This document shows, piece after piece, positions 4,650 to 34,643 of a DNA stretch of 36,163 nt. Below the pieces are notes generated by a model that worked only from the letters and a program-made list of their open reading frames with translations, ran no database searches and had not been told where the DNA came from. Within the stretch, counting starts at the first letter, position 1. Every line of letters starts with the position of its first letter. Source of the stretch: Victivallales bacterium (GTDB lineage: Bacteria > Verrucomicrobiota > Lentisphaeria > Victivallales > GWF2-38-69); assembly GCA_021733985.1 (NCBI GenBank), contig JAIPJT010000026.1, forward strand, positions 1 to 36,163, given 5' to 3'. The translations under genes were made by a program, and so were the position numbers.

Positions 4650-7409
4650 ATGCAGCATGAGAAAATTCACTTTACCGGCTACCTGTCAATATCAATGATG
4701 TCGTTCATATGTCTTGGCGCAGTTATTTGGATATCATTCTATGGATTTTTTGCTCATATCATGTATTTCATTGCCGCAGTTCTTTTCCTACTGCCTCTCG
4801 GAATTTCAACGGCCCAGCTTTCTTCGACGTGGAAAGACAATGCAGGAATCTTTACCTGGCCTACAAAAGCTTATAATGTTTATATTGGGAACTTTACTGT
4901 ATTTGCGCATTGGCTGCAGAACACTTTTTTAATTAACGTACTGCTTATTGTATGTGCGGTTTTTTCAAGCTATTTAATTATGCCGGATACAAACTCAGCT
5001 TTAAGTATGGCAGGTAATAAATATTATATAGTCAGCTTCAACATCGTAACTTTCTGGCTCCTGTCATTAGTAAATATGAAAGGTGTGAAAGTAACTTCTA
5101 AAATTTGCATTGTCGGTGTAATTGGAGGTATCCTTATACCCTTTTTCATCCTTACAATTACCGCTTTTTACACAATTTACACAACGGGCTTTCCCTGGAA
5201 CAATTTCTCCATTTATCAACCTTTTGAAAAAATTTTCTCATTCTCTGATATTAAACTTTTCATAATTATTATAGGTTCATTTTTCGGTATAGAAATAACT
5301 TCCGTATTTTCAAATAATTTCAATAATAATAAAAAAAAAGGTATAAGAAGAGCTATACTTATCCCTGTTGCAGCTACTCCATTTATTTTCTTATTGTGCG
5401 GTCTATTTATAACAATTATAATTCCGGACTTAAAACATATCTCAACGAAAGAGGATCTTCTTTTTATTATCAATTCTTTTTTTAATACCCTTCCCTATCC
5501 GTCAATTTATAAAATGTTATCCTTTTGCTTCATTTTAGGTGCAGTGGCTAACATATCAGTATGGATTTCAGGACCGAACAAAACACTTCATTACTCTTGT
5601 ATAAGGGGAAAATTACCCAAATGGCTAATAAAAGTTAACGAAAAAGGCGTTCCCGAACGAATATATATAGTTCAGGGTTTACTAATTACAGTGTTAAGTT
5701 TATTTTTTGCGCTGCAGCAAACTGTAGGAAATGTCTTTTTGATGATGCAGGCTTTTTTTGTAATACTCAGTTTAATCGTATATATTATACTGTTTTCTTC
5801 CACGATAACTTTAAGTATAAGATATGAGTACATCAAAAATTTTTTTATAATACCTTTCGGTAAAAACTGCATATATATCCTCTACTTCATCGGTATAATT
5901 ACTTCTCTGTTTACGATATTAATATGCGTCTATTTCCCTCTATCTCAATCTATAAAAACTCATTACGATGTTTATTTGAATTTTATAACAGTGGGTGTTT
6001 TATCCACTGTAATAGCATCTTTATTGATTTACAGTGAAACGCTCAAAAATCTTGTTTTTAAAAGCACAGACATATCTGTAGAAAAAAATATCAAATTGTT
6101 ATTAATACTCTGTGCTGCTACGTTCTTAACATCACTTGTCCGCTTTCTATGCAATTTAATATTAGCTAGAAACATGCTCATTTCAGCATATGGAGATCTG
6201 TCACTTACAATCAGAATAATTGCTATAGTATCCCTGGTGTTACTGCTGGGAACAAATCTTTCAGCAGTAAAATACCTCTCTTATTATTTTGAAACAGGGA
6301 ATATTTTCTCAATAAACAGATTTGTAAGGTGGAATTACAGGCTTGTTTTTAAAAATATCTCCTTATATATATTTCTTCTGTGTATAGTCTACCTTATCAT
6401 AATGACAGTTGACTTAGGAAAAATTGTACTTGAAGTCAATAGCTATAAATATACATTATTTTTCCTTACACTTGTCCCGCTTGTGGTAATATCAAATCTT
6501 CTCTCAAGCTATTTTTTAAGCTATAAGTGGCCTGTATTATATTACTTTTTCAATTCTATGGCGAAACAGTTTATTTTTCTTATGCTACTGGGAATTTCTG
6601 TATTATATTTCAATACAGAGTTAGGGTTAATAAACATTCTGGTACTTTTTATATTTACATATTTAATAATGATCTTTTTTGAATTTTTTTTCATTACCAG
6701 AATATTCCAGGAATATAATATTAGGCTGCCTAAAATCTTTTTTCTCTGGAAGGAAAAAAGCAATATTTCAGATAGTGAAAGCAGAATCTGGAAAAAAGAA
6801 TCCCTGAAGCTGATCATCAACAGACTGATATATTACCTGAATCTTTCAACAGGTTTTTTTGTTTTAGAAATATTCCATCCGGATGAAAAATCTTTAGGTT
6901 TTTTTGCTGTAATTATAGCAATAACAAATGTCATTATCCTGATACCAACTTCAATTAAAAGTATAATTTTACCGAAAATAAAATATTTGACAACTAAAAA
7001 AAAACATACAGAACTTCAGCAGAATATCGACCAGCTGAATATCATAAACTTTCTGATACTTACAGTTTTACTAATAATTATATTATTTTTCGGCAATGAA
7101 ATCCTTGCTACGTTCGGTGTTGGTTATAAAGAATCTTATCTGCCGTTGATAATAATTGGTACAGCTTATTATATATCAGGGTTGCTCATTCCTATTGTTA
7201 ATGTGTTAATCTTTACCGATACAAGGAAAATAATCACTATTAATGTAATCCAGATTTTTATACTTATTACCATAGGAATATTCGGCACTTACTATTTTTA
7301 TCTCAGCGGTATGGCATTTGCCATTCTAATATCATCAATCATTAAATCGCTTTTAATTTACCTATCAATAAAAAAGAGTTTGCCTATAAGACCCTTATCC
7401 ATAATATAA
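4650..7409 (+). CDS. fusion of APC-superfamily amino-acid antiporter and oligosaccharide-flippase-like domain
   Basis: A 919-residue protein made almost entirely of membrane helices. Residues 1 to about 470 look like a glutamate:GABA-antiporter-type APC transporter. The early part (LLPLGISTAQLSSTW, then GIFTWPTKAYN and HWLQNTF) lines up with the TM2-TM3 region of GadC-like proteins, and VWISGPNKTLHYSC with the later NKTL-containing loop. Residues about 480-919 start a new membrane array resembling Wzx/MATE-type (MOP) polysaccharide flippases: an opening helix with RFLCNLILARNMLISAYGDL, LSAVKYLSYYFETG, and a C-terminal half with LIPTSIKSIILPKI and FGVGYKESYLPLIIIGTAYY. The frame is open throughout, with no stop or frameshift at the junction. 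Each half has the usual length of its family. Inference: one polypeptide couples amino-acid exchange to lipid-linked or peptide-linked export. The substrates are unknown. Confidence 0.75.
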   Translation: MQHEKIHFTGYLSISMMSFICLGAVIWISFYGFFAHIMYFIAAVLFLLPLGISTAQLSSTWKDNAGIFTWPTKAYNVYIGNFTVFAHWLQNTFLINVLLIVCAVFSSYLIMPDTNSALSMAGNKYYIVSFNIVTFWLLSLVNMKGVKVTSKICIVGVIGGILIPFFILTITAFYTIYTTGFPWNNFSIYQPFEKIFSFSDIKLFIIIIGSFFGIEITSVFSNNFNNNKKKGIRRAILIPVAATPFIFLLCGLFITIIIPDLKHISTKEDLLFIINSFFNTLPYPSIYKMLSFCFILGAVANISVWISGPNKTLHYSCIRGKLPKWLIKVNEKGVPERIYIVQGLLITVLSLFFALQQTVGNVFLMMQAFFVILSLIVYIILFSSTITLSIRYEYIKNFFIIPFGKNCIYILYFIGIITSLFTILICVYFPLSQSIKTHYDVYLNFITVGVLSTVIASLLIYSETLKNLVFKSTDISVEKNIKLLLILCAATFLTSLVRFLCNLILARNMLISAYGDLSLTIRIIAIVSLVLLLGTNLSAVKYLSYYFETGNIFSINRFVRWNYRLVFKNISLYIFLLCIVYLIIMTVDLGKIVLEVNSYKYTLFFLTLVPLVVISNLLSSYFLSYKWPVLYYFFNSMAKQFIFLMLLGISVLYFNTELGLINILVLFIFTYLIMIFFEFFFITRIFQEYNIRLPKIFFLWKEKSNISDSESRIWKKESLKLIINRLIYYLNLSTGFFVLEIFHPDEKSLGFFAVIIAITNVIILIPTSIKSIILPKIKYLTTKKKHTELQQNIDQLNIINFLILTVLLIIILFFGNEILATFGVGYKESYLPLIIIGTAYYISGLLIPIVNVLIFTDTRKIITINVIQIFILITIGIFGTYYFYLSGMAFAILISSIIKSLLIYLSIKKSLPIRPLSII

Positions 7410-15784: not shown

Positions 15785-15988
15785 TTATTTCCAGTTTTTC
15801 CAGACATTATTTTTTGAAATTTTCATAGTTGCAGTTAAATCATGTTTTTTTTCATTTTCTTCATCATCTCCCTTTACTTCCACTTCAACTTTAAATACTT
15901 TTTTACATATTTTGCACTCAAGCTCCTGACCAAAGAATTCTTCGGAAATGTCATAGTGCTGAGAACAGTTTGGACATTCTATCTTCAT
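15785..15988 (-). CDS. small MJ0042-type zinc-ribbon protein
   Basis: A 67-residue protein. Residues 1-35 form a zinc ribbon with two CxxC knuckles (Cys5/Cys8 in IECPNCSQHYDI and Cys25/Cys28 in ECKICKKVFKV), matching the MJ0042 zinc-finger domain common at the N-terminus of bacterial signalling and membrane proteins. Here it stands alone with a 30-residue charged tail (DDEENEKK) and no membrane segment, so a nucleic-acid or protein adaptor role is possible but unproven. The ribosome site AAGGAGG lies 7 bases before ATG 15988 and the promoter is near-consensus, so it should be strongly expressed. tRNA-Thr follows 59 bases downstream on the same strand and may share its transcript. Confidence 0.85.
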   Translation of the reverse strand: MKIECPNCSQHYDISEEFFGQELECKICKKVFKVEVEVKGDDEENEKKHDLTATMKISKNNVWKNWK

Positions 15989-16022
15989 TTTTCGCCTCCT
16001 TTACACACATAAATTGTAAAGG

Positions 16023-16195: not shown

Positions 16196-16204
16196 TGTTA
16201 TAAT
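16196..16204 (+). promoter_or_regulatory. extended -10 promoter of the pseudo-resolvase gene
   Basis: TGTTATAAT (16196-16204) is a perfect extended -10 element; no -35 element is needed and none is clear. It lies only 20-25 bases before the proposed translation start region, so the transcript leader is very short. Confidence 0.5.
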
Positions 16205-16224
16205 CGTTATGGGAGAATTCAGTT

Positions 16225-17181
16225 ATCAGTAAACACCGGAATAAAACTCAAAGCCGACACTGTAGAATCGGTTATATACATATTGACCCATATGCAATTT
16301 CACTTGATCTTCAGCGAAAAGCACTTGATACAGAGGGTTGTGAAACAATTTATATTGGGCGGTCGGAAAACATTGATTTTGAACGCCCTGAACTTGTAAA
16401 GGCAGTAAAGCATGCTGAAAAGTTTGATGAGCCATATATCATTGTTTACAGCCTTCAACAGCTTGCAGGTTCACTCGAAAATTTGAGTGATATTTGCAAA
16501 GTCTTAAAAAGGCTGGGGATATCTCTTGTAAGTGTTCAGGAAGGAGTAACAATACTCCCCTTCTCAAGTGTGGAAGAAACTCTTTCTGAAGACATCCTGC
16601 GGATCGGCTATGTACATATTGACAAAGGCGATACGAATCAGGGCTTGCAAAAAGAAATACTTCAGAAAGAAGGATGTATAAAAATTTATTATGGACGGTC
16701 TGATGATATTGATTTCGAAAGGCCTGAACTGGTTAAAGCAGTAAGGCATGCGGGAAAAAGCGATACAAACTGCCTGATAGTTTTTAATTTAATGAAACTT
16801 GCCGCCTCTCTTGAAAACTTAAGCGATATTTGCAAAGTCATGAAAATGCTTGGAATTTCCCTAAAAAGCATTGATGAAAATATTTTTATTAAGAAATTCT
16901 CAGGCTTTGAAAAAGTCCTGTCTCCAACTGGCAGCTTAAGGCTTTCAGAAGATTCCGTTGAAAAAAAGACCAAAGACACAAAAGGCTTTTTTCCTAAACT
17001 GAATAGAAAAAAAATGATAAAATTACTTATCTGTATAATTATAATTCTTTGTATTCTGAGCGGAATATACTATTGGCTCTTAACCAAATACGATGATGAA
17101 GAGATGGATGACACAGAATTCAATTCTTCATATAAAATCCCTAACGACTTAGATAAAATACCGGGTATAAATAATGGTTAA
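16225..17181 (+). CDS. membrane-anchored protein with two degenerate serine-resolvase domains
   Basis: The frame is open from 16204 to 17181. It encodes two tandem copies of a resolvase N-terminal-like fold. Copy 1 (16270-16560) reads CRIGYIHIDPYAISLDLQ, ERPELVKAVKHA, LAGSLENLSDICKVLKRLGI. Copy 2 (about 16600-16890) reads LRIGYVHIDKGDTNQGLQ, ERPELVKAVRHA, LAASLENLSDICKVMKMLGI. In true resolvases the first motif is YxRVS, with Ser as nucleophile; both copies have HID, and the Arg of LARSL is Gly or Ala. Both are therefore expected to be dead for strand cleavage. A linker, one membrane helix (about 266-285) and an acidic tail follow. No ATG, GTG or TTG occurs in frame before TTG 16483, which would cut off copy 1. 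GGGAG at 16211 lies 9 bases before ATC 16225, used here as a provisional start. The next gene overlaps it by 8 bases. Confidence 0.6.
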   Translation: MSKHRNKTQSRHCRIGYIHIDPYAISLDLQRKALDTEGCETIYIGRSENIDFERPELVKAVKHAEKFDEPYIIVYSLQQLAGSLENLSDICKVLKRLGISLVSVQEGVTILPFSSVEETLSEDILRIGYVHIDKGDTNQGLQKEILQKEGCIKIYYGRSDDIDFERPELVKAVRHAGKSDTNCLIVFNLMKLAASLENLSDICKVMKMLGISLKSIDENIFIKKFSGFEKVLSPTGSLRLSEDSVEKKTKDTKGFFPKLNRKKMIKLLICIIIILCILSGIYYWLLTKYDDEEMDDTEFNSSYKIPNDLDKIPGINNG

Positions 17182-18064
17182 AAAACAAAAAAATATTTTA
17201 ATGCTTATTTCCATCTGTTTGATACCGATACTCCTGTATTATGGAATTAACACTGTAACTTCTCTCAAGATTTTTCCTAAAAAGATAGAATGCGGGAAAA
17301 ATTATATTAATTTTGTGGAGAAATATGGAGTTCCTAAAGTATTAGTTTCATCAAGTATGGAGCTTACTGATGAAAATCTCAGCATAATACCCGGTAACCA
17401 TTCCTATGAAAATATCAATACTATACTTGGAGATAAAAGAAGTGTTGAACAGAAAAAATCTATTATTAACAACAGTGAAAACTTAAATAATAATCCCGGC
17501 CCCTTAGATAAAATATTCTCAGGTTATATGGATCATATATCTAAAATCAAAAAGAATATAGGGAATATAAACCCCGGGAATAATGATATAAACAACCAAC
17601 TGAGCAACGGAAATAACCAGACAGATACGAGTAAATATTATCGGGGAAATGTATATGAAGCTGTACTGCTGGCTTCTTTCAAACAAAAACTTTCCTACAG
17701 TATTGTAGTCTTGAAGGAAAAATATTATGAATGCAGCTTTCCTGACAAAAAGCAGTTCTACACGTATACTATAATAAATAACTCTTCAATTATTTATTTC
17801 CCTGACGGAATCAGTAAAGAAGATTTCAAAAAAATACTTAATTTCAAAAAAGGGAAAGATCTCTGGTGCAGCTTCTCAGACTGGCGGGCAAAAAGAAGCA
17901 AAACAACATATGAAAAATTTTACAGGCTTTACAGGTTCACTGTTCCCACATCAACTACCTGCATGCTAAAAGGCGGTAAATTTGTTCTGTACGGAAAAAA
18001 TTTACATAGAGAAAATGAGCTCCTTGAGATAGTCCGGAAATTAATCAACAAAAAAATGCTTTAA
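17174..18064 (+). CDS. membrane-anchored protein of unknown function, partner of pseudo-resolvase protein
   Basis: A 296-residue protein that I do not recognise. One hydrophobic segment (about 8-25) after a short basic start (MVKKQKN) suggests a signal anchor with the rest outside the cytoplasm. The middle (about 70-160) is rich in Asn, Gly and Ser and looks unstructured. The C-terminal 130 residues are folded-looking and strand-rich: YYRGNVYEAVLLASFKQ, YSIVVLKEKYYECSF, IYFPDGISKEDFKKIL, then basic KRSKTTYEKFYRLYRFTV. ATG 17174 overlaps the end of the upstream gene by 8 bases (ATGGTTAA), so the two are translationally coupled and probably act together. No transporter or enzyme motif is seen. 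Confidence 0.7.
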   Translation: MVKKQKNILMLISICLIPILLYYGINTVTSLKIFPKKIECGKNYINFVEKYGVPKVLVSSSMELTDENLSIIPGNHSYENINTILGDKRSVEQKKSIINNSENLNNNPGPLDKIFSGYMDHISKIKKNIGNINPGNNDINNQLSNGNNQTDTSKYYRGNVYEAVLLASFKQKLSYSIVVLKEKYYECSFPDKKQFYTYTIINNSSIIYFPDGISKEDFKKILNFKKGKDLWCSFSDWRAKRSKTTYEKFYRLYRFTVPTSTTCMLKGGKFVLYGKNLHRENELLEIVRKLINKKML

Positions 18065-18144
18065 TGAGATTCTACACGAAACTTCTACTCTTTCTTAGGC
18101 TTATATAGTCTTCCCGGTTGCCTCTGGTTCTATATATTATATAT

Positions 18145-18173
18145 TTGAAATTCCTTCAGTCAGTTTGTATAAT
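18145..18173 (+). promoter_or_regulatory. strong promoter of the nusA operon
   Basis: TTGAAA (18145-18150), exactly 17 bases, then TATAAT (18168-18173): five of six and six of six matches. Transcription would start near 18180, giving a leader of about 220 bases before nusA that holds the short frame at 18223 and the hairpin at 18298. Confidence 0.65.
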
Positions 18174-18222
18174 AACAATCTCGATTTCAAAATCAGATAA
18201 TTTATTAAAAAGGGGCTATATT

Positions 18223-18279
18223 TTGATTGTAAAGGCTGGTAACAATATTATATTACGAAGTTATAGCTTGATACTTTAA
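18223..18279 (+). CDS. possible 18-residue leader peptide of nusA
   Basis: TTG at 18223 opens 18 codons ending TAA at 18279, with AGGGG at 18211-18215 seven bases upstream, a good ribosome site that nothing else uses. The peptide begins (M)IVKAGNN and is rich in Ile, Leu and Ser. It ends 19 bases before the terminator-like hairpin at 18298, the layout of a translated attenuator. The codons show no strong run of a single amino acid, so the sensed signal is unknown. Confidence 0.3.
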   Translation: MIVKAGNNIILRSYSLIL

Positions 18280-18297
18280 AACGGCAGTACTCTTGTA

Positions 18298-18328
18298 GGT
18301 GGGCTTTTGTCCACTTATTTTTTTATAA
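18298..18328 (+). terminator. intrinsic terminator or attenuator in the nusA leader
   Basis: GTGGGC (18299-18304), loop TTTT, GTCCAC (18309-18314), with one G-T pair and a possible extra G-T pair outside. A T-rich tract TTATTTTTTT follows directly. It lies downstream of the nusA promoter and upstream of nusA, so it should attenuate nusA rather than only end the previous gene. Confidence 0.6.
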
Positions 18329-18401
18329 ATTAATATTACTGTCTCATTTAACATAAAATAAATAACTGAACAGATTAAATATAGGAGCAGAAGTTTGATA
18401 T

Positions 18402-19625
18402 ATGGCTGGTAACGAAATTTTAAGCCTGCTTGAATACCTTGAGCAGGAGCGCGGTATAGAACGCGATAAACTTGTCGAAGCTTTGGAAAAAGCTTTAATT
18501 TCTGCCGGAAGAAAAAGTTTAAATTACGGAATAGATATTGAAGTAAAGGTTAGTAAAAATACCGGTGAAATCAGGGCCTGGGTAGAACTTGAAGTAGTGA
18601 AAGAGAAACCCGACAATAAGCAGATAATTATTGAAGATGCAAAATTGATTAAACCGGATGTAAAACTCGGTGAAATAATAATTAAAAAAATTCCGCAGAA
18701 AGAGTTCGGAAGAATTGCCGCCCAAACTGCAAAACAAACAATGCTTCAGCAGCTGAAGAAGGCGGAAAAATCAAAAATATACGATGATTATAAAGATAGT
18801 ATAGGACAAATTATAAGCGGTAAAGTAAGGGGATTTGAAGACGGCAATATAATAGTTGACTTTCAAAGAGTTGAAGGCTTTCTTTCAGTGCGGGAAAAGA
18901 TTCCCGGCGATAAATTTATGATCGGCGATAGAATCAATGCACTTCTTAAAGAAATTAATACTGCAGGTACAGGTGCTAATCTGATTTTATCGAGAACAAG
19001 TAAAAAATTTATACGAAGGCTTTTCGAGAGGGAAATAGCTGAAATCTCAGATGGAATAGTAGAGATTAAAGGTGTTGCAAGGATTCCCGGTGCAAGAACT
19101 AAAATAGCCGTTTTGAGCCATGATCCCAAAGTAGATTCTATAGGAGCATGTATAGGTATCAGAGGAAGCAGAATCAGGAATATTACCTCAGAATTAAGCG
19201 GTGAAAGAATAGATATAGTTGAATATGACAACGATATATATAAATTTGTAAAAAATGCAATGCAGCCCGCTGTGCCGAAAGATATCGAGATAGATGAGGA
19301 GGAAAGTCTGGCTAAAGTTATTGTCGATAAAGATCAGATAAGGCTTGCAATAGGAAAAAACTGGCAGAATACAAAGCTCTGCAGTCAGCTCATAGGGATG
19401 AAAGTAAAAATTCTTACAGCTGAAGAAGACATGTCTTTTGCTGAAAAAATCAAAGAAACAATCAGCGGCCTGGCTGAAAAACTCGAAATAGAAGAGGTTA
19501 CAGCAGAAGAACTTGTTAATAATGGCATTCTGACTGTAGACGGTCTCACAGCAATGGGAAAAGATGACCTTGAAGCACTGAAAATCCCGGAGGAAGACAA
19601 AAAGAAACTTCTTAATAAAGTTTAA
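18402..19625 (+). CDS. nusA: transcription termination/antitermination factor NusA
   Basis: A 407-residue cytoplasmic factor that binds RNA polymerase and nascent RNA to control pausing, termination and antitermination. Domains in order: an N-terminal polymerase-binding domain (1-125, starting with a helix typical of NusA: LLEYLEQERGIERDKLVEAL), S1 (about 130-200), and KH1 with intact GIRGSR after the conserved DSIGACIGIRG. KH2 follows (about 290-345), where the usual GKKGQN loop is GKNWQN (Gly318, Trp321). The C-terminus holds only one short helical acidic-repeat/HhH-like segment (350-407); E. coli NusA is 495 residues with two. ATG 18402 follows AGGAG. infB follows by 35 bases. rimP, often directly upstream, is absent here. 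Confidence 0.96.
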   Translation: MAGNEILSLLEYLEQERGIERDKLVEALEKALISAGRKSLNYGIDIEVKVSKNTGEIRAWVELEVVKEKPDNKQIIIEDAKLIKPDVKLGEIIIKKIPQKEFGRIAAQTAKQTMLQQLKKAEKSKIYDDYKDSIGQIISGKVRGFEDGNIIVDFQRVEGFLSVREKIPGDKFMIGDRINALLKEINTAGTGANLILSRTSKKFIRRLFEREIAEISDGIVEIKGVARIPGARTKIAVLSHDPKVDSIGACIGIRGSRIRNITSELSGERIDIVEYDNDIYKFVKNAMQPAVPKDIEIDEEESLAKVIVDKDQIRLAIGKNWQNTKLCSQLIGMKVKILTAEEDMSFAEKIKETISGLAEKLEIEEVTAEELVNNGILTVDGLTAMGKDDLEALKIPEEDKKKLLNKV

Positions 19626-26678: not shown

Positions 26679-29600
26679 ATGGAGAAATATTTGAATAACC
26701 AATCACATAACAAAAAAACCATTAAAATAACGCTAACTCTAAGCTTGATACTGTTTATAAACCTTTTTTTAGCTCTGAGCAGTTTTTCTGCCGTACAGGA
26801 GAGTAATAACGTCAGTAACAGCTGGCTTACAGCGTATGAACTTTTTGAAAAAGCAGAAAATTGCTATGAAACAAAAAAGTACAGTTCGGCTCTTGCATAT
26901 TTTAAACGAGCCTCTGAACTGTTTGAAACAATTACTTTAGAAAAACCTGACTGGAACAGAGCCCTTGTCCGCTACAGACTGAAACGCTGCAAAGAAAGAA
27001 TAAATTTAATCAGGAAAAAAATAAGCAGTGAATCTCAGAACAAATCATTCAGTAAACTTGCAGATGAAAACATAAAACTCCAGAACAGGATTGCCGACAT
27101 CCAGTCAATGTTTCTTGGGGAAAAACGAAAACTGAAAAATGCTTTATCTAAACTGGAAAAGACTCAGACAGAACTTATGAGAAATTCAAGCGCCTCTGAA
27201 AGATTGAAGGAAGTAATAAGTTCTAAAAGTAAACTCGAGAAAAAAAATAAATATTTATCATCACAAATTGAGGATTTGAGATATAAAATTCAGAATAATG
27301 AAGAGCTGGAAAACCTACGACAAACGATCTCAGGATACAAACAGAAGATCCGGGAGCTGAATAGAGGGAAAATTTCTGTAGAGGAAAATTTCAAGGAACT
27401 TCAAAACAAATATAGAGACCTGAGTTTGAAACAGGCAAAAATTAAACTCGAGCGTGATGAAAGCATTTCTGATTTAGAAAATTTAAGATTCAAACTTAAT
27501 TCCTATGATAGAAAAATAGGTAAACTTAATTCACAAATAAGCAGGTTAAGTACTGAAAAGAATTATCTGAAACAAAATATCTCAGAGGTCAAAGAAAGAC
27601 TTGAAACCGAAAGAAACAGAAATGTGAAATTAAGCAGCGAAGTAACCGAAAGCTCAGTGTCTTCAAAACAAAACAGCATACCAAGACTTCAGAATGAAAA
27701 TGAATCTCTACGTAATGAACTTTATAAAAATCAGGAAAAAATTGATAGTCTTAATAAGCTTAAAGAATCCTATTCCCTTGAGCTTCAGGATCTAAGGCAA
27801 AAATACAACAAAACTAACTCACAACTGGGCAAGTACACTGATAAAAATAAATCAGTCAGCGAAGAACTTGATATCCTAAAAAGCAAACTTGATGAGCAAA
27901 AGACGATAAATACCGAATTTCAGCAGAATATTGACATTCTTAATAATGAATTAGAAAGAGAAAAAAAATCATATAACCTTTTGGCTCAAAAATATAAAAA
28001 AATAAAGAAAGAAAAAGAAAACTTAGTTAGATTAAAAACAAAAAATGAGCAGCTTACTGAAGATAAAATATCATTGAATCGACTAATTAATAATTATCAA
28101 AAACGTATACAAAGTATCAAAGACGAAAGAGATGCCCTTACTGAAGCCGAAACAGCCCTGCAGAATGAGCGGCAAAGGCTCATCAATGAAAATAAAAACA
28201 TAAGAAAATTAAAAAATGAAGAAATAACCCAAAAGCTTCAGAAGCTCAAAAATGCAAATCAAAATATTTCCAAACTTGAAGATGAACACATTAAACAACA
28301 GAAAAGAATCAGCAAACTTCTTGATAATGCAGAGATAGCAGAAGAATCTCTGCTTAAAATTCAATCAGAAAACATTGAAGTCAGAAAAAAGCTTCTTCAG
28401 GCTAACAAACAGATCGATAAATTTAAATTAAAACAGGATAAAAAGCTGAATAACATAAAAAATCTCCTGAATGACCTTGAAAATTTAAGAACACAAGCTG
28501 AAAAAGCCGAAAGTGAAAGAGACTCGATTAAACGCAATTTTAACGACACAAAACAGAAGCTTTCAAGTTTAGAAAAAGAGAGAAACCAGCTCATTAAAAA
28601 AATAAGCTCCATTGCTTCTTTAAAAGAGTCTACAGTCCGGAAAAATAAAAAAATCTCCAGGGATAAAAATGAACTTGAATCCAGGTTAAAAAAATCCAAC
28701 GAGCAGTTATCAAAATTAAAGAAAACAAATATAACCCGAAATAATCAAATTAATGAGCTTTTAAATTCGATAGAAAATTTTAAAAATAAATTAAATCTCG
28801 CGACTTCCGAAAAGGAAAAGCTCCAGCAGGATTTAACTTCCTATATAAAAAAACATACCTCACTTAAAAAGAAAAATTCAGAACTGCTGAAAAAAACGGA
28901 TAATCTTCTTAAAAAATATAAAAATATCTCTGAAAAAAATGAAAATATAAAAGATGAAAGAGATGAAGCTCTCCAAAATATAAAAAATATTAACAAGGAT
29001 TTAGCTGATTACAAAGGTAAAAGCTCAGATCAGTTGCAGAAAATAGAAGACCTGCTCGATAAAATCAACAGAAAAGAACAGACCAATAAAGAAGCTAATA
29101 AAGATAGAAGTGAACTGAGAAAACAAATTCAGCAAGCTAAAAACAAAATCTCAGCATATGAAGAACACCAGAAAAAACAAAATAGAAAGCTTAATGAACT
29201 GCTGCAGAAAGCAGCCAGGTCAGAAGACAAAATAGAAAACTTAACTGCAGAAAAGGAAGAGCTTTCTAATAAGCTTAAAAATGCACTGAATAAAATATCT
29301 CAATATGGATCCAAAGATAAGTCTCAGCTCGATAAAATAAACCTGTTGCTGGAAAAACTGGAAATAGCCAAAAAAGCAATAAAGAAAAAAGATAAAAGCA
29401 ATTCTGTTCTTCAGGAAAGGTTCATGGTCATAAACAGCCGTGTAAACAATTTAGAAAAGATCCGAAGCGACCAGAGGGATACAATTAAAGAATTAATGGA
29501 TAATGTTTCAGGGCTGAAAAAAAATATAGATGAAACAAAAAAAGAAAAACAAAACATTAAAAACAAATTTGAATCAGCAAGAGGCCATCTCTCCAAACTT

Positions 29601-32600
29601 GAAACTGAAAATGCGGAACAAACAGAAAGAATTAAAGGTTTATTAGATAAACTGGAAGAATCGGAAAATACTGCCCGGAAACTGTCTAAGGACAAAGAAG
29701 CTGTACAAATGAAACTTCAAAAGGCAGAAAATAAAATAAATGAGCTGGAAAGTGAAAGAAACGATCATATTAAAAAAATCAACAATCTTCTTAATAAAGT
29801 TAAAGAAGCAGAGGAGTTAGCCCGGAAAAAAACAGAACAGAATGAAGAAATAAGAAAAGATCTTTCTGAAGCACAAAAAAGGTCCGCCGATATTGCATCA
29901 GATTATGCTGAACAGCAGCAACTGGTCAAAAAACTGATGAAGTCCTCAAAAAAAAGCGGAGATAATTATGTCGATAAAGAAATGGAATATGCACAGACCG
30001 CAGAAGAACTCGCCAGTGCAAGAAAAAGAATAAATAAACTTGAATCAGAATACTCAAAAAATTTAAACAAAATAAAAGAGTTAAAAACTAAACTCGAGGA
30101 TGCACACGAGAACACAGCAAATACAAAAAATAATTATAAAGCCGCTATCGAAGAACTTAAGAAAGCTAAACAAAAAGTTTCTAACCTTGAAATCGAACAA
30201 ATGCAGTTAAACTCCAAAATACAGGTACTGTTAAATAATATTCAGGAAAAAACAAAAGAAGCGATTGAGGAGCGAAATGAACATCAGCATACGAAAAAAC
30301 AGCTCGCCGACACTAAAAATGAAGTTAACAAACTTGATGACATAAGGAAACAGCAGCTAAAGAAAATAAAAAGCTGTTTAAATAAAATAAGATCACAGGA
30401 AACAGAAATAAACAGTACAAAAAATGAGAGAGCTGAATTAAAACAAAGGCTGGACGAGGCTTCAAAAATAATTAAAAATTTTGAAAATAAGCACAAAACT
30501 AATACTGAAAAAATTCAAAGCCTTGTTCTGGAAATAAAGAGAATAAAAGATAAAGCAGACCTACAGCAAAATCAGATAAAAGAATTGAAACAGAAATATC
30601 TTCAATCAAAAGAAACAGTCAATTCACTCACGTCTGCTCAAAATAAGAAAAAAGAAGAACTGAAAAAATTAAGGGAAAAATTAAAAACTGAAGAAAATTT
30701 AAATAAATCAATAAAACATAAGCTTGTGCAGTCAAAAGTTGAACTGGAAGAAACAGTCAAAAATCTAAATAAAAAAATTAAAAATAAAACCGACGAAACT
30801 GAAAATATTAAAAAACAGCTACATTCAGCAAACAAATCTGTAATACGAAACAGGAATTTGTACAGTGACGCTGTAAAACAACTCAAAGTCACTGAGAAAA
30901 AAGTGTCAGAACTTAAGAATGAGAGGAAAAGGTTTATTCATAAACTTGAAAGACTGAGTGAGACTCTCAAAGAAATGACAAAAGAAAATAAGCAGCTTAA
31001 GGATGCACATAAAAAAGTAACTTCTGAACTTAAGTCGGCCCAAAAAACCATTGATCAACTTGACCATATAAAGAACAGACAGAAGGCAGTAATAAAAGAA
31101 CTTTTTTCCAAAATTAGAATTGCTAAAAAAAATGCCAGAGTGAAAGGCGAAGAAAAAGCTGCACTGAATAATGAAATTCAAAAAGTAAAAAGCAACCTTC
31201 TAAGTATGCAGGAAGGTTTGGAAAATAAGGAAAAAAGAGTTAAAAATTTAATCGATAAACTTAATAAATCACAACAGGAAGCTGAAATAGCTCAGCAACA
31301 GTCCGATGAGTATGTCGGCAAAGTTATTCAAGCCAAAAAGAAAGCTGCAAAAATAAAAGAACAGCATCAAAAGCTTTTGGAAAAATATAAAAAGCAGGCG
31401 CAGGAAATCTCCAAACTTAAAGCTGCTTCCGAAAACTCTAAAGCTGAAAATGAATTAAAAAAGAAACTCGGCAAAGTAAAGAACAAACTTTCTGAACTCG
31501 AAATGAAATATGCAAACCAACTCGACAAGACTGAAGTAATAAAAGCTAAACTTTCCATAACTGAAAATAAGAAAAAAAGCTTCATAGATAAACATAAAAA
31601 TTCTCTTAAAAAACTGAAAATATTACAAAACCGTCTTACAAAAGAACAGGAAGAAAAGAATGAACTTATTGGTGAACTTGAAGAAGTTAAAGACCTCCTC
31701 AAAAGAAAAGATATGGAAAATAAAAAACTCAGAAAAGAAAAAGAAATTTTAAAATCTGAACTTACTGTTTCGAAAAACAATATAAATGGCTTAACGGAAA
31801 TTAGAGATAAACAAGTTAATAAAATTTCACGGCTGTTAAAGCAATTAGAAAGTAAAAATCTGAAACTAAAAGAATTTAAAAACCTCAATACTGAAATAAA
31901 GAATGATTTAAACAGAGCAAATAAATCTATAAGTAAACTTGAAACTGCCCAGAATGAAACACAAAGAAGGATAAAAAAACTTAATATAGAACTGGAAGAA
32001 ACTAAACAGAGAGCATCTGACGGAAAATCAGAACTCTCCGACTTAAAAACCGACTACTCTAAACTGAAAGAAGATAAGAAAAACCTTGAAAAAGAATATA
32101 AAAATAAACTCGAGTATATTGAAAAAATTAAAGATAAACTTGAAAGTGCTAAAACAAAAGGGAGTATTGCCCTGAAGGAATGTAGTAATCTGCAAAAAGA
32201 ATTAAATAAAAACATGGAGCAGCTTAAGAACTTAAAATCTAACAAAATGGAGCTTACCGATAAAACTGAAAAACTAAAAAATAACATTTCTAAACTTCAG
32301 GAGCAGGTCGAAAACCAAAATCGTAAAAGAATCAATACAGAAAATAAGCTTTTAATAGTGAAATCTAATTTGATAGAGATAAAAACAGAACGAACAAACC
32401 TTTTAAAAAAGCTTGAAAAGTTAAAAGACATTATAAGTTCGCATGAAAAGAAAAATTCTGAACTAAAACTTATGAACAGGGATTTAAAGCAGAAATTAGA
32501 GGAATCAAAACAAATTTCTCTGAAACTGGAAAAAACAAAGGAAAAACAGCATTCGAAAATATTAGATCTTATAGAACACCTTAAAGGATTAAAATCAGAA

Positions 32601-34643
32601 AACGCAGAAAAAGAAGAATTAAACCTCAGCTTAGAAAATGAACTCAACGAAGCAGAAAACACTATAAATAATATTAGTGAGGAAAGAAAAAATAATTTAC
32701 GAAAAATCAATAAGCTCAATGACCGGATACAAAAAAGTCAAAAAATTAAAATTGAAACAGAGAAAAAGCTTACCGGCTTGAAAACCGAATATACACTTCA
32801 GAAACAGAAAAACAATGATTTGAAGAAGAAAATGGACAACCGTGAAAAAACAATCGACTCTCTTAATACAAAAATTTCAAGTCTTTCTTTTGATAACCAG
32901 GAACATATTAAAATCCGGAAAGCCTTAAAACACAAATTAAAATTATCTAATAATAAACTGGAAGATTATAAAAATAAAGAAAAGAGCTATAAAAAAGATA
33001 TTTTAACGTTAAAAAATCAAATCCAAACCGGTGAAAAACAGATTAAAAAAACTAATGAAAAATATAATGATCTCCAGAGAACACTGATGCTGGTTAAAAA
33101 TAATAACTCCAGCCTGCAAACGGAACATAATATACTAAAACAACATCTGGAAAAATTAAAAAGAACTTTAAATCAACATAAAAAAACAAACCAAATTTTA
33201 ACAGAAAAGCAAAAATCATTAGAAATTGATTACAATACGGCTAAAGAAAAAATAAATAAACTGAAAAACACTAAAGAAGAACAAACAGTTCAGATTGAAA
33301 GCTTAATGGACAAATTAAAGAGCTCCGAACATAAAAGAGGAGAAACTGTCTCTGACAACAAACTTCTTGAAAACAAATTAACTGAAGCTGTAAATAAAGT
33401 CAAAAAGCTCAGGGCTGAACAGGATAAAAATCATGAAATGATTGAATCATTAACTGTTAAACTTAAAAACAGTAAACATAAAGTTCTTAATTCTGCAAAC
33501 AGTCTTTCCGATATGAAAAGCAGGCATAAAATATTAATTGATAAATATTCGAATCTGGGAGCTCTTAAAAAAGAACAGAAACAAAAAATAAATGAACTTA
33601 ATTCAATGATTGAAAAACTGCAAAATGAAAAAGCAACTTCTTTAAATGCAAGGAAAGAACTCAAAGCACAGCTTGAGACTGCAGTAAAAAAGGAAAAAGA
33701 ATACTCGTTACGTGAAAAAAATGCATCTGCTCAAATAAATGTATTAAATAAGAAAATGGATGAAATGAAATTGCAGGCCAAAAAGAATATACAAGAACGT
33801 CACAACCTCGAATCTGCATTGAATTCAGCTAATGATAAAGTAACAGCCCTTAAAAAAGAAAAGGATTCAATGAAGCTTAAGCTTGAGAAATTAAACGATA
33901 CTTTAGAACAGCACAAAAAAGCAAATAAAGCTTTAACGAAACAACATAAAATATTAGAAGTAAATTACAGTTCAGCAAAGGAAAAAATAAAGGAACTCAA
34001 AAAAACAAAACAGGAAATAAAAAATATTGAAAATATTAATAAAGAGCGCAAAAGTAAAATTAATAACCTTCTTTTGCAGATAAAGAATACTCAGTCAAAA
34101 CTCGAATTGTCTAAAAAAAATAAACAGGACGTTCAGAGCAGTTTACAAAAAGCAGAAAAGACTATTGATAACCTTAAAAATAAAATTGAAAGCAACAAAA
34201 AGACAAACACTGAAACTGTCGGGTATATATCAAAGCTTAAGGGCAATTTAGATCGTTTAAAAACAGAAAAAACTGAGCTTTCGGAAAAGCTTAATACCTA
34301 TAATAATATTGTTAAAAACCGAAGTAAACAAATTAAAGAACTAAAAGATATGCATACAACTGTTAATACCGATTTGAACGTTGCCAGGCAAACTATAGAT
34401 AATCTAAATAAAATTAAGAATGAACAGCATATAAAAATAGAACAACTGAAGCATAACTTAAAAACTTTAAAAGAAAGACTTGAGTTAACCAAACACACAA
34501 AAGTTGAAGAAAAACAGAAACTTTCTGAAGCTAAAACCTTGATAAGTGAATTGAAGGATGATAAACCCGGTCTGAGTAAAGAGCTCCAAAATTTAATGGA
34601 CAAACGATCAAGCCTGAAAAGAATTTCAAATGACTACTATTGA
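26679..34643 (+). CDS. giant exported coiled-coil protein with 49-residue repeats
   Basis: A 2654-residue protein. It starts with a Sec signal peptide (basic NKKTIK, hydrophobic core about 17-36, SSFSAVQ). A small helical TPR-like segment follows (about 45-110: AYELFEKAENCYETKKYSSALAYF in two helices). About 2500 residues of Lys/Glu/Asn/Leu-rich coiled coil then run to the end, with almost no Pro, Gly or Trp. From residue 543 the hydrophobic signature (I-x-x-LL at the unit start, I-x-x-L at unit positions 37-40) recurs every 49 residues, exactly seven heptads. No C-terminal membrane segment or sorting motif is seen. As one rod it would be about 0.37 micrometre long. A structural filament, spacer or envelope tether is inferred. 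ATG 26679 has no ribosome site; TTG 26691, in frame, has GGAG 6 bases upstream and may be the real start. Confidence 0.88.
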   Translation: MEKYLNNQSHNKKTIKITLTLSLILFINLFLALSSFSAVQESNNVSNSWLTAYELFEKAENCYETKKYSSALAYFKRASELFETITLEKPDWNRALVRYRLKRCKERINLIRKKISSESQNKSFSKLADENIKLQNRIADIQSMFLGEKRKLKNALSKLEKTQTELMRNSSASERLKEVISSKSKLEKKNKYLSSQIEDLRYKIQNNEELENLRQTISGYKQKIRELNRGKISVEENFKELQNKYRDLSLKQAKIKLERDESISDLENLRFKLNSYDRKIGKLNSQISRLSTEKNYLKQNISEVKERLETERNRNVKLSSEVTESSVSSKQNSIPRLQNENESLRNELYKNQEKIDSLNKLKESYSLELQDLRQKYNKTNSQLGKYTDKNKSVSEELDILKSKLDEQKTINTEFQQNIDILNNELEREKKSYNLLAQKYKKIKKEKENLVRLKTKNEQLTEDKISLNRLINNYQKRIQSIKDERDALTEAETALQNERQRLINENKNIRKLKNEEITQKLQKLKNANQNISKLEDEHIKQQKRISKLLDNAEIAEESLLKIQSENIEVRKKLLQANKQIDKFKLKQDKKLNNIKNLLNDLENLRTQAEKAESERDSIKRNFNDTKQKLSSLEKERNQLIKKISSIASLKESTVRKNKKISRDKNELESRLKKSNEQLSKLKKTNITRNNQINELLNSIENFKNKLNLATSEKEKLQQDLTSYIKKHTSLKKKNSELLKKTDNLLKKYKNISEKNENIKDERDEALQNIKNINKDLADYKGKSSDQLQKIEDLLDKINRKEQTNKEANKDRSELRKQIQQAKNKISAYEEHQKKQNRKLNELLQKAARSEDKIENLTAEKEELSNKLKNALNKISQYGSKDKSQLDKINLLLEKLEIAKKAIKKKDKSNSVLQERFMVINSRVNNLEKIRSDQRDTIKELMDNVSGLKKNIDETKKEKQNIKNKFESARGHLSKLETENAEQTERIKGLLDKLEESENTARKLSKDKEAVQMKLQKAENKINELESERNDHIKKINNLLNKVKEAEELARKKTEQNEEIRKDLSEAQKRSADIASDYAEQQQLVKKLMKSSKKSGDNYVDKEMEYAQTAEELASARKRINKLESEYSKNLNKIKELKTKLEDAHENTANTKNNYKAAIEELKKAKQKVSNLEIEQMQLNSKIQVLLNNIQEKTKEAIEERNEHQHTKKQLADTKNEVNKLDDIRKQQLKKIKSCLNKIRSQETEINSTKNERAELKQRLDEASKIIKNFENKHKTNTEKIQSLVLEIKRIKDKADLQQNQIKELKQKYLQSKETVNSLTSAQNKKKEELKKLREKLKTEENLNKSIKHKLVQSKVELEETVKNLNKKIKNKTDETENIKKQLHSANKSVIRNRNLYSDAVKQLKVTEKKVSELKNERKRFIHKLERLSETLKEMTKENKQLKDAHKKVTSELKSAQKTIDQLDHIKNRQKAVIKELFSKIRIAKKNARVKGEEKAALNNEIQKVKSNLLSMQEGLENKEKRVKNLIDKLNKSQQEAEIAQQQSDEYVGKVIQAKKKAAKIKEQHQKLLEKYKKQAQEISKLKAASENSKAENELKKKLGKVKNKLSELEMKYANQLDKTEVIKAKLSITENKKKSFIDKHKNSLKKLKILQNRLTKEQEEKNELIGELEEVKDLLKRKDMENKKLRKEKEILKSELTVSKNNINGLTEIRDKQVNKISRLLKQLESKNLKLKEFKNLNTEIKNDLNRANKSISKLETAQNETQRRIKKLNIELEETKQRASDGKSELSDLKTDYSKLKEDKKNLEKEYKNKLEYIEKIKDKLESAKTKGSIALKECSNLQKELNKNMEQLKNLKSNKMELTDKTEKLKNNISKLQEQVENQNRKRINTENKLLIVKSNLIEIKTERTNLLKKLEKLKDIISSHEKKNSELKLMNRDLKQKLEESKQISLKLEKTKEKQHSKILDLIEHLKGLKSENAEKEELNLSLENELNEAENTINNISEERKNNLRKINKLNDRIQKSQKIKIETEKKLTGLKTEYTLQKQKNNDLKKKMDNREKTIDSLNTKISSLSFDNQEHIKIRKALKHKLKLSNNKLEDYKNKEKSYKKDILTLKNQIQTGEKQIKKTNEKYNDLQRTLMLVKNNNSSLQTEHNILKQHLEKLKRTLNQHKKTNQILTEKQKSLEIDYNTAKEKINKLKNTKEEQTVQIESLMDKLKSSEHKRGETVSDNKLLENKLTEAVNKVKKLRAEQDKNHEMIESLTVKLKNSKHKVLNSANSLSDMKSRHKILIDKYSNLGALKKEQKQKINELNSMIEKLQNEKATSLNARKELKAQLETAVKKEKEYSLREKNASAQINVLNKKMDEMKLQAKKNIQERHNLESALNSANDKVTALKKEKDSMKLKLEKLNDTLEQHKKANKALTKQHKILEVNYSSAKEKIKELKKTKQEIKNIENINKERKSKINNLLLQIKNTQSKLELSKKNKQDVQSSLQKAEKTIDNLKNKIESNKKTNTETVGYISKLKGNLDRLKTEKTELSEKLNTYNNIVKNRSKQIKELKDMHTTVNTDLNVARQTIDNLNKIKNEQHIKIEQLKHNLKTLKERLELTKHTKVEEKQKLSEAKTLISELKDDKPGLSKELQNLMDKRSSLKRISNDYY
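28305..30803 (+). repeat. coding repeats of 147 bases (49 residues), block 1
   Basis: Seventeen consecutive units, residues 543-1375 of the coiled-coil protein, each exactly 49 residues. Unit starts include RISKLL (543), NIKNLL, QINELL, KIEDLL, KINLLL, RIKGLL, KINNLL, KIQVLL and ELKKLR (1327). Protein similarity between units is moderate, DNA similarity lower, so duplication is old but register was kept. Confidence 0.75.
31821..34025 (+). repeat. coding repeats of 147 bases (49 residues), block 2
   Basis: Fifteen consecutive units, residues 1715-2449, again exactly 49 residues each: unit starts include KISRLL (1715), RIKKLN, YIEKIK, KLEKLK, KILDLI, TIDSLN, HLEKLK, QIESLM, QINVLN and KLEKLN (2401). 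Between blocks 1 and 2 the pattern continues with small register slips of 3 and 1 residues. Units starting HLEKLK and KLEKLN are close relatives five units apart, a later internal duplication. Confidence 0.75.

Follow-up and report, generated by a model that had tools for sequence, protein, structure and literature searches.

Tandem pseudo-resolvase cores on a predicted membrane anchor in a Victivallales bacterium

Why would a bacterium carry two copies of a serine-recombinase core that has lost its active site, and what might such a protein do at a membrane? The question is raised by an open frame on the forward strand, at 16204-17181 of the window (the whole stretch of 36,163 nucleotides that was analysed). 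The frame runs for 325 open codons with no stop or frameshift. It encodes two small-serine-recombinase cores of ~100 residues each in an exact 336-nt register, with units starting at 16264 and 16600 (Table 1). The two cores are identical at 64 of 112 residues (57%) and at 202 of 336 bases.

Table 1. Features of the pseudo-resolvase gene and of the region up to nusA. Positions are those of the window.
Feature	Position	Strand	Basis and remarks
Extended -10 promoter-like element, TGT-TATAAT	16196..16204	+	Read from sequence; predicted transcript start near 16211
GGGAG ribosome-binding-like site and probable non-canonical ATC start	16211..16227	+	Sequence; candidate assignment
First pseudo-resolvase core, RIGYIHID... 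unit, 112 codons	16264..16599	+	PF00239, 33.8 bits for the half alone; active-site table
Helix B, first core (PELVKAVKHAEK)	16387..16422	+	DSSP of the second-core AF2 model, transferred by alignment; identity analysis
Helix D, first core (LENLSDICKVLKRL)	16474..16515	+	DSSP of the second-core AF2 model, by alignment; identity analysis
Second pseudo-resolvase core, RIGYVHID...	16600..16929	+	57% identity to the first; PHROG; AF2/Foldseek
Helix B, second core (PELVKAVRHAGK)	16723..16758	+	DSSP of the AF2 model; identity analysis
Helix D, second core (LENLSDICKVMKML)	16810..16851	+	DSSP of the AF2 model; identity analysis
Lysine-rich linker, net +5	16921..17010	+	Charge count
Single membrane helix (MIKLLICIIIILCILSGIYYWLL)	17011..17085	+	Kyte-Doolittle 2.7 over 19 residues; structure model
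Acidic C-terminal tail, 31 residues, net -6	17086..17178	+	Predicted outside the cytoplasm, from the presumed topology
Overlapping downstream gene, 296 aa	17174..18064	+	ORF; hydropathy, charge; overlap 8 nt
Terminator-like hairpin and T-run, between the gene pair and nusA	18295..18318	+	Consensus match only

The whole protein matched the Pfam Resolvase family PF00239 at 8.2e-13 (49.1 bits; cut-off 23.3), and it was the sole match to this family in its own genome. When the halves were searched separately, the first scored as listed in Table 1 and the second 19.7 bits, which is under the cut-off. Taken alone, the score of the second half would favour a chance resemblance, with an unrelated alpha/beta protein happening to look like a resolvase. 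However, the halves match in register, and independent libraries and PDB sequences agree: the PHROG DNA invertase family phrog_125 matched the whole protein at 1e-15 and the second core at 1.9e-6, and solved DNA-invertase chains were matched at 2.3e-7. Both halves also retain the conserved residues Y6, Q19, R45 and D59, and we regard a chance resemblance as extremely improbable. A receptor-L or leucine-rich-repeat identity for the GCxxIY and SLENL motifs was ruled out by Pfam. An AF2 model of the second core (pLDDT 76) had strands and helices in the expected order, and a Foldseek search with it returned resolvase, invertase and Sin structures, with Sin, Tn3, gamma-delta and Gin among the top matches (TM ~0.55-0.70). 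Note that the input alignment consisted of the second core, the first core and catalytic resolvase relatives; with resolvases in the alignment, the model supports the fold but is not independent proof. A full-length single-sequence model reached a pLDDT of 39.8, the membrane helix being its only confident part. Membership of both cores in the resolvase fold family, as proposed by an earlier sequence-only reading, is thus strongly supported by the sequence matches.

The active site was compared in an alignment to gamma-delta resolvase, whose numbering is used here, and to 16 catalytic relatives. Both halves carry the replacements R8H, S10D, Q14I/T, D36G, D67Q/M, R68Q/K and R71G/A, whereas S10 and R8 are present in 16/16 catalytic comparators. 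None of Ser10, Arg8, Arg68 and Arg71, the residues that mark a functional small serine recombinase, is found in either half. Each unit stops with a short stub shortly after beta-4; the second unit comes after the first, and the linker and membrane helix after the second. Helix E and the C-terminal helix-turn-helix DNA-binding domain are absent from the protein sequence. Thus, the exchange of the nucleophile Ser for Asp, the loss of the active-site arginines and the missing DNA-binding tail, all noted in the sequence-only reading, held up, and loss of the catalytic residues from both cores is strongly supported by the alignment. Compared with Gin, gamma-delta, Tn3 and Sin, the cores share the N-terminal fold and sequence (~24-38% identity), including the four retained residues, but differ in the loss of the nucleophile and of R8, D36, D67, R68 and R71. 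They differ further in having no helix E or DNA-binding domain and in the arrangement of two cores per chain together with a membrane helix.

Both copies have H8, D10, G36 and R37 in common, and these changes most simply predate the duplication. In agreement with this order of events, the copies are 57% identical to each other as compared to at most ~38% to any catalytic enzyme. Both comparisons bear out the earlier suggestion that an already dead domain was duplicated in tandem. The shared residues could also be viewed as a rebuilt active site, with H8-x-D10, Y6, R45 and the new R37 forming a metal or ligand pocket in a membrane-bound sensor or some other enzyme. The two copies indeed share the HxD and GRS residues and R45, and 6/7 positions of beta-1 are conserved. 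However, beta-1 is as conserved among ordinary resolvases, while helix A, the active-site segment of helix C and residues 67, 68 and 71 differ between the copies. Moreover, two copies are too few to tell constraint from shared ancestry, and we consider a rebuilt site unlikely.

Comparison of the copies by the NG86 method gave a dN of 0.37 and a dS of 3.34, near saturation, with different codons at 31 of the 64 identical residues. The near-saturated dS combined with a low dN indicates that the duplication is old and that the protein sequence was held. Judged by this comparison, the copies diverged under strong purifying constraint. Helix B was identical between the halves at 10/12 positions and helix D at 12/14 (22/26 for B and D together), the two helices having been picked after the alignment was viewed and the constraint being read from one pair of copies, with no orthologue. 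Among pairs of catalytic enzymes with 45-70% identity, the mean identity was 0.39 for helix B (maximum 0.67) and 0.30 for helix D (maximum 0.57), and catalytic pairs of similar divergence had at most 13/26 identical positions in B and D. With a second alignment and set, 0/94 catalytic pairs attained the B+D identity of the halves. Under an earlier definition of the segments, the difference between B+D identity and that of the remaining positions was +0.41 in the halves and was positive in 0/120 catalytic pairs. The opposite pattern was observed for helices A and C, the latter being the active-site helix. Synonymous differences were alike inside helices B and D (15/31) and outside (16/33), and this equal synonymous divergence argues against gene conversion as the source of the B/D conservation. 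Constraint on helices B and D is well supported by these identities; it has moved away from the active site.

The catalytic cores of IS607 TnpA dimerise via helices B and D, in contrast to other small recombinases, in which helix E serves this purpose (PMC6188088). The helices at the TnpA dimer interface are the same ones that are conserved between the present copies, and the pattern of conservation appears consistent with a B/D dimer face of the TnpA type. In contrast to the present protein, TnpA is catalytic and carries a winged-helix domain at its N-terminus as well as a helix E bundle. The IS607 TnpA family profile NF033518 had 0 matches in the genome that encodes the pseudo-resolvase. While the B/D dimer is shown for TnpA, for the duplicated protein it is presumed: with helix E gone and B and D nearly fixed in tandem cores, the B/D face is likely to be used. 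By analogy with TnpA, a scaffold function through this face, either intramolecular or towards another protein, is the best-supported inference. A membrane-bound dimerising module is plausible, but it could not rely on the usual helix-E interface, as helix E is missing; the B/D conservation points to the TnpA-type core face instead.

The C-terminal part of the protein is predicted to be a membrane anchor. As described by the sequence-only reading, one strongly hydrophobic segment (residues ~267-296) is followed by an acidic tail; in the structure model the helix spans residues 268-297, with pLDDT >90 in the middle. The lysine-rich linker and the positive-inside rule would place the cores in the cytoplasm, and the tail would then lie outside. 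With this topology, dead cores that still bind DNA might hold it at the membrane, as the earlier reading had offered. Resolvase ancestry, the retained R45 and the lysine-rich cytoplasmic side next to the membrane would fit such tethering. However, it is unsupported by the protein itself, in which the DNA-binding domain, helix E and the active-site arginines are absent and the cores have net charges of -4 and +2; we judge it highly unlikely.

An orthologue of the duplicated pseudo-resolvase was found neither in 198 genomes of the class nor in a phylum sample of 388 genomes, in which one match (L059) proved upon inspection to have no resolvase frame. Peptide-pattern scans of 84,980 species and of viral contigs also gave no orthologue, noting that such scans detect only relatives that keep short exact peptides and that distant ones could escape. 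Where the sequence of a match was inspected, it proved to be an ordinary catalytic small recombinase or a large serine recombinase. Matches on plasmids and phages, judged by annotation and low identity only, reached at most ~70% query coverage and <60% identity and were recombinases or invertases where annotated. The protein is a single, lineage-specific case so far. The closest precedent we found for a dead serine recombinase with another role is poxvirus F16, a predicted inactive serine recombinase (PMC4304020, PMC11980589). In both cases a catalytically dead domain of this superfamily is retained for another role, but F16 enters the nucleoli of infected eukaryotic cells, whereas the present protein is bacterial, duplicated and membrane-anchored. 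The likeness to F16 is drawn from the papers only, and the relationship extends to the shared superfamily.

Position 16204 is the first codon following a stop rather than a start, and no ATG, GTG or TTG occurs in frame upstream of 16483, which falls within the first domain. Between the copies, the codons before this first TTG had a dN of 0.35 with saturated dS, indicating that the first domain was coding throughout. The best candidate start is likely the ATC at 16225-16227, an allowed start in table 11, located 9 nt after GGGAG (16211-16215). The extended -10 element, GGGAG and ATC would plausibly form a short leader in which a rare codon serves as the start; a good -35 was not found upstream of the -10 element. 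Alternatively, the missing standard start could reflect a base or assembly error or a recent loss of the start. The last possibility would suit a decaying gene, in which a once selected pseudo-recombinase is now losing expression and has no present function. The lack of a canonical start before 16483 and the orphan status are consistent with decay, but the frame is open over its full length and both copies show constraint, which also covers the stretch before 16483. In addition, GGGAG and ATC are well spaced with an extended -10 upstream, and the overlapping downstream gene is intact. Selection between the copies is evidence on the past only. On balance, decay appears quite unlikely. Divergent from the pseudo-resolvase gene, at 15785-15991 (-), lies a small unlisted gene for a zinc-ribbon-like protein of ~68 residues with paired CxxC (MKIECPNCSQHYDISEEFFGQELECKICKKVFKV).

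The product of the overlapping downstream gene (17174-18064) has one N-terminal membrane helix and is strongly basic (net +20). It had no known family, no PDB match and no homologue among the 198 class genomes. This protein is predicted to be membrane-anchored and to lie outside the cytoplasm, and is likely the partner of the pseudo-resolvase.

Fold family, catalytic loss, truncation, in-register duplication and B/D constraint are well supported at the sequence level; the membrane anchor is predicted, and the topology, pseudo-dimer, partner and scaffold function are inferred. The explanation we favour, at about an even chance, is a lineage-specific, membrane-anchored pseudo-recombinase that serves as a protein-interaction scaffold. 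Its ancestor would have been a small serine recombinase of the resolvase or invertase type, whose core lost the nucleophile (S10D), the phosphate-binding arginines, helix E and the DNA-binding domain. The dead core would then have been duplicated in tandem and have gained a membrane helix by fusion at the C-terminal end. The B/D faces of the two cores may pack together as a built-in pseudo-dimer, like the TnpA cores, or may instead provide two equivalent docking sites for a partner. The natural candidate for this partner would be the basic, membrane-anchored 17174-18064 product outside the cytoplasm. A more specific version, in which an intramolecular B/D pseudo-dimer and the basic outside partner form a two-protein, membrane-spanning complex as a domesticated, catalysis-free module, is tentative and on the doubtful side. 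Inactive serine recombinases with other roles are rarely described, and our literature search found only F16. If true, the scaffold explanation would show the conversion of a recombinase into a protein-interaction module in which selection left the active site for two surface helices; its clear prediction is the B/D pseudo-dimer. A single example from one assembled genome limits the weight of the case.

Regarding the surroundings of the gene pair, no rimP-like gene was seen directly before nusA (window 18064-18402); the orphan pair and the terminator-like hairpin are located there instead. Such terminator-like matches numbered 2 in 3 kb, compared to a shuffle mean of 1.6. Two genomes of the same family have other genes at the site upstream of nusA, with a PHP-like gene divergent from nusA. 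The tRNA-Thr gene had no support as an insertion site, as the 3' end of the tRNA points away. Upstream of the locus, the segment 9547-14273 (+) encodes, as judged by eye, a hybrid histidine kinase and, after it, a response regulator of the sigma-54 type. A 919-residue fusion-like protein at 4650-7409 (+) combines, again by eye, an amino-acid-permease-like N-half and a polysaccharide-flippase-like C-half in one frame. At 26679-34643 (+), the window encodes a lysine/glutamate-rich, coiled-coil-like protein of 2654 residues with an N-terminal signal-like segment.
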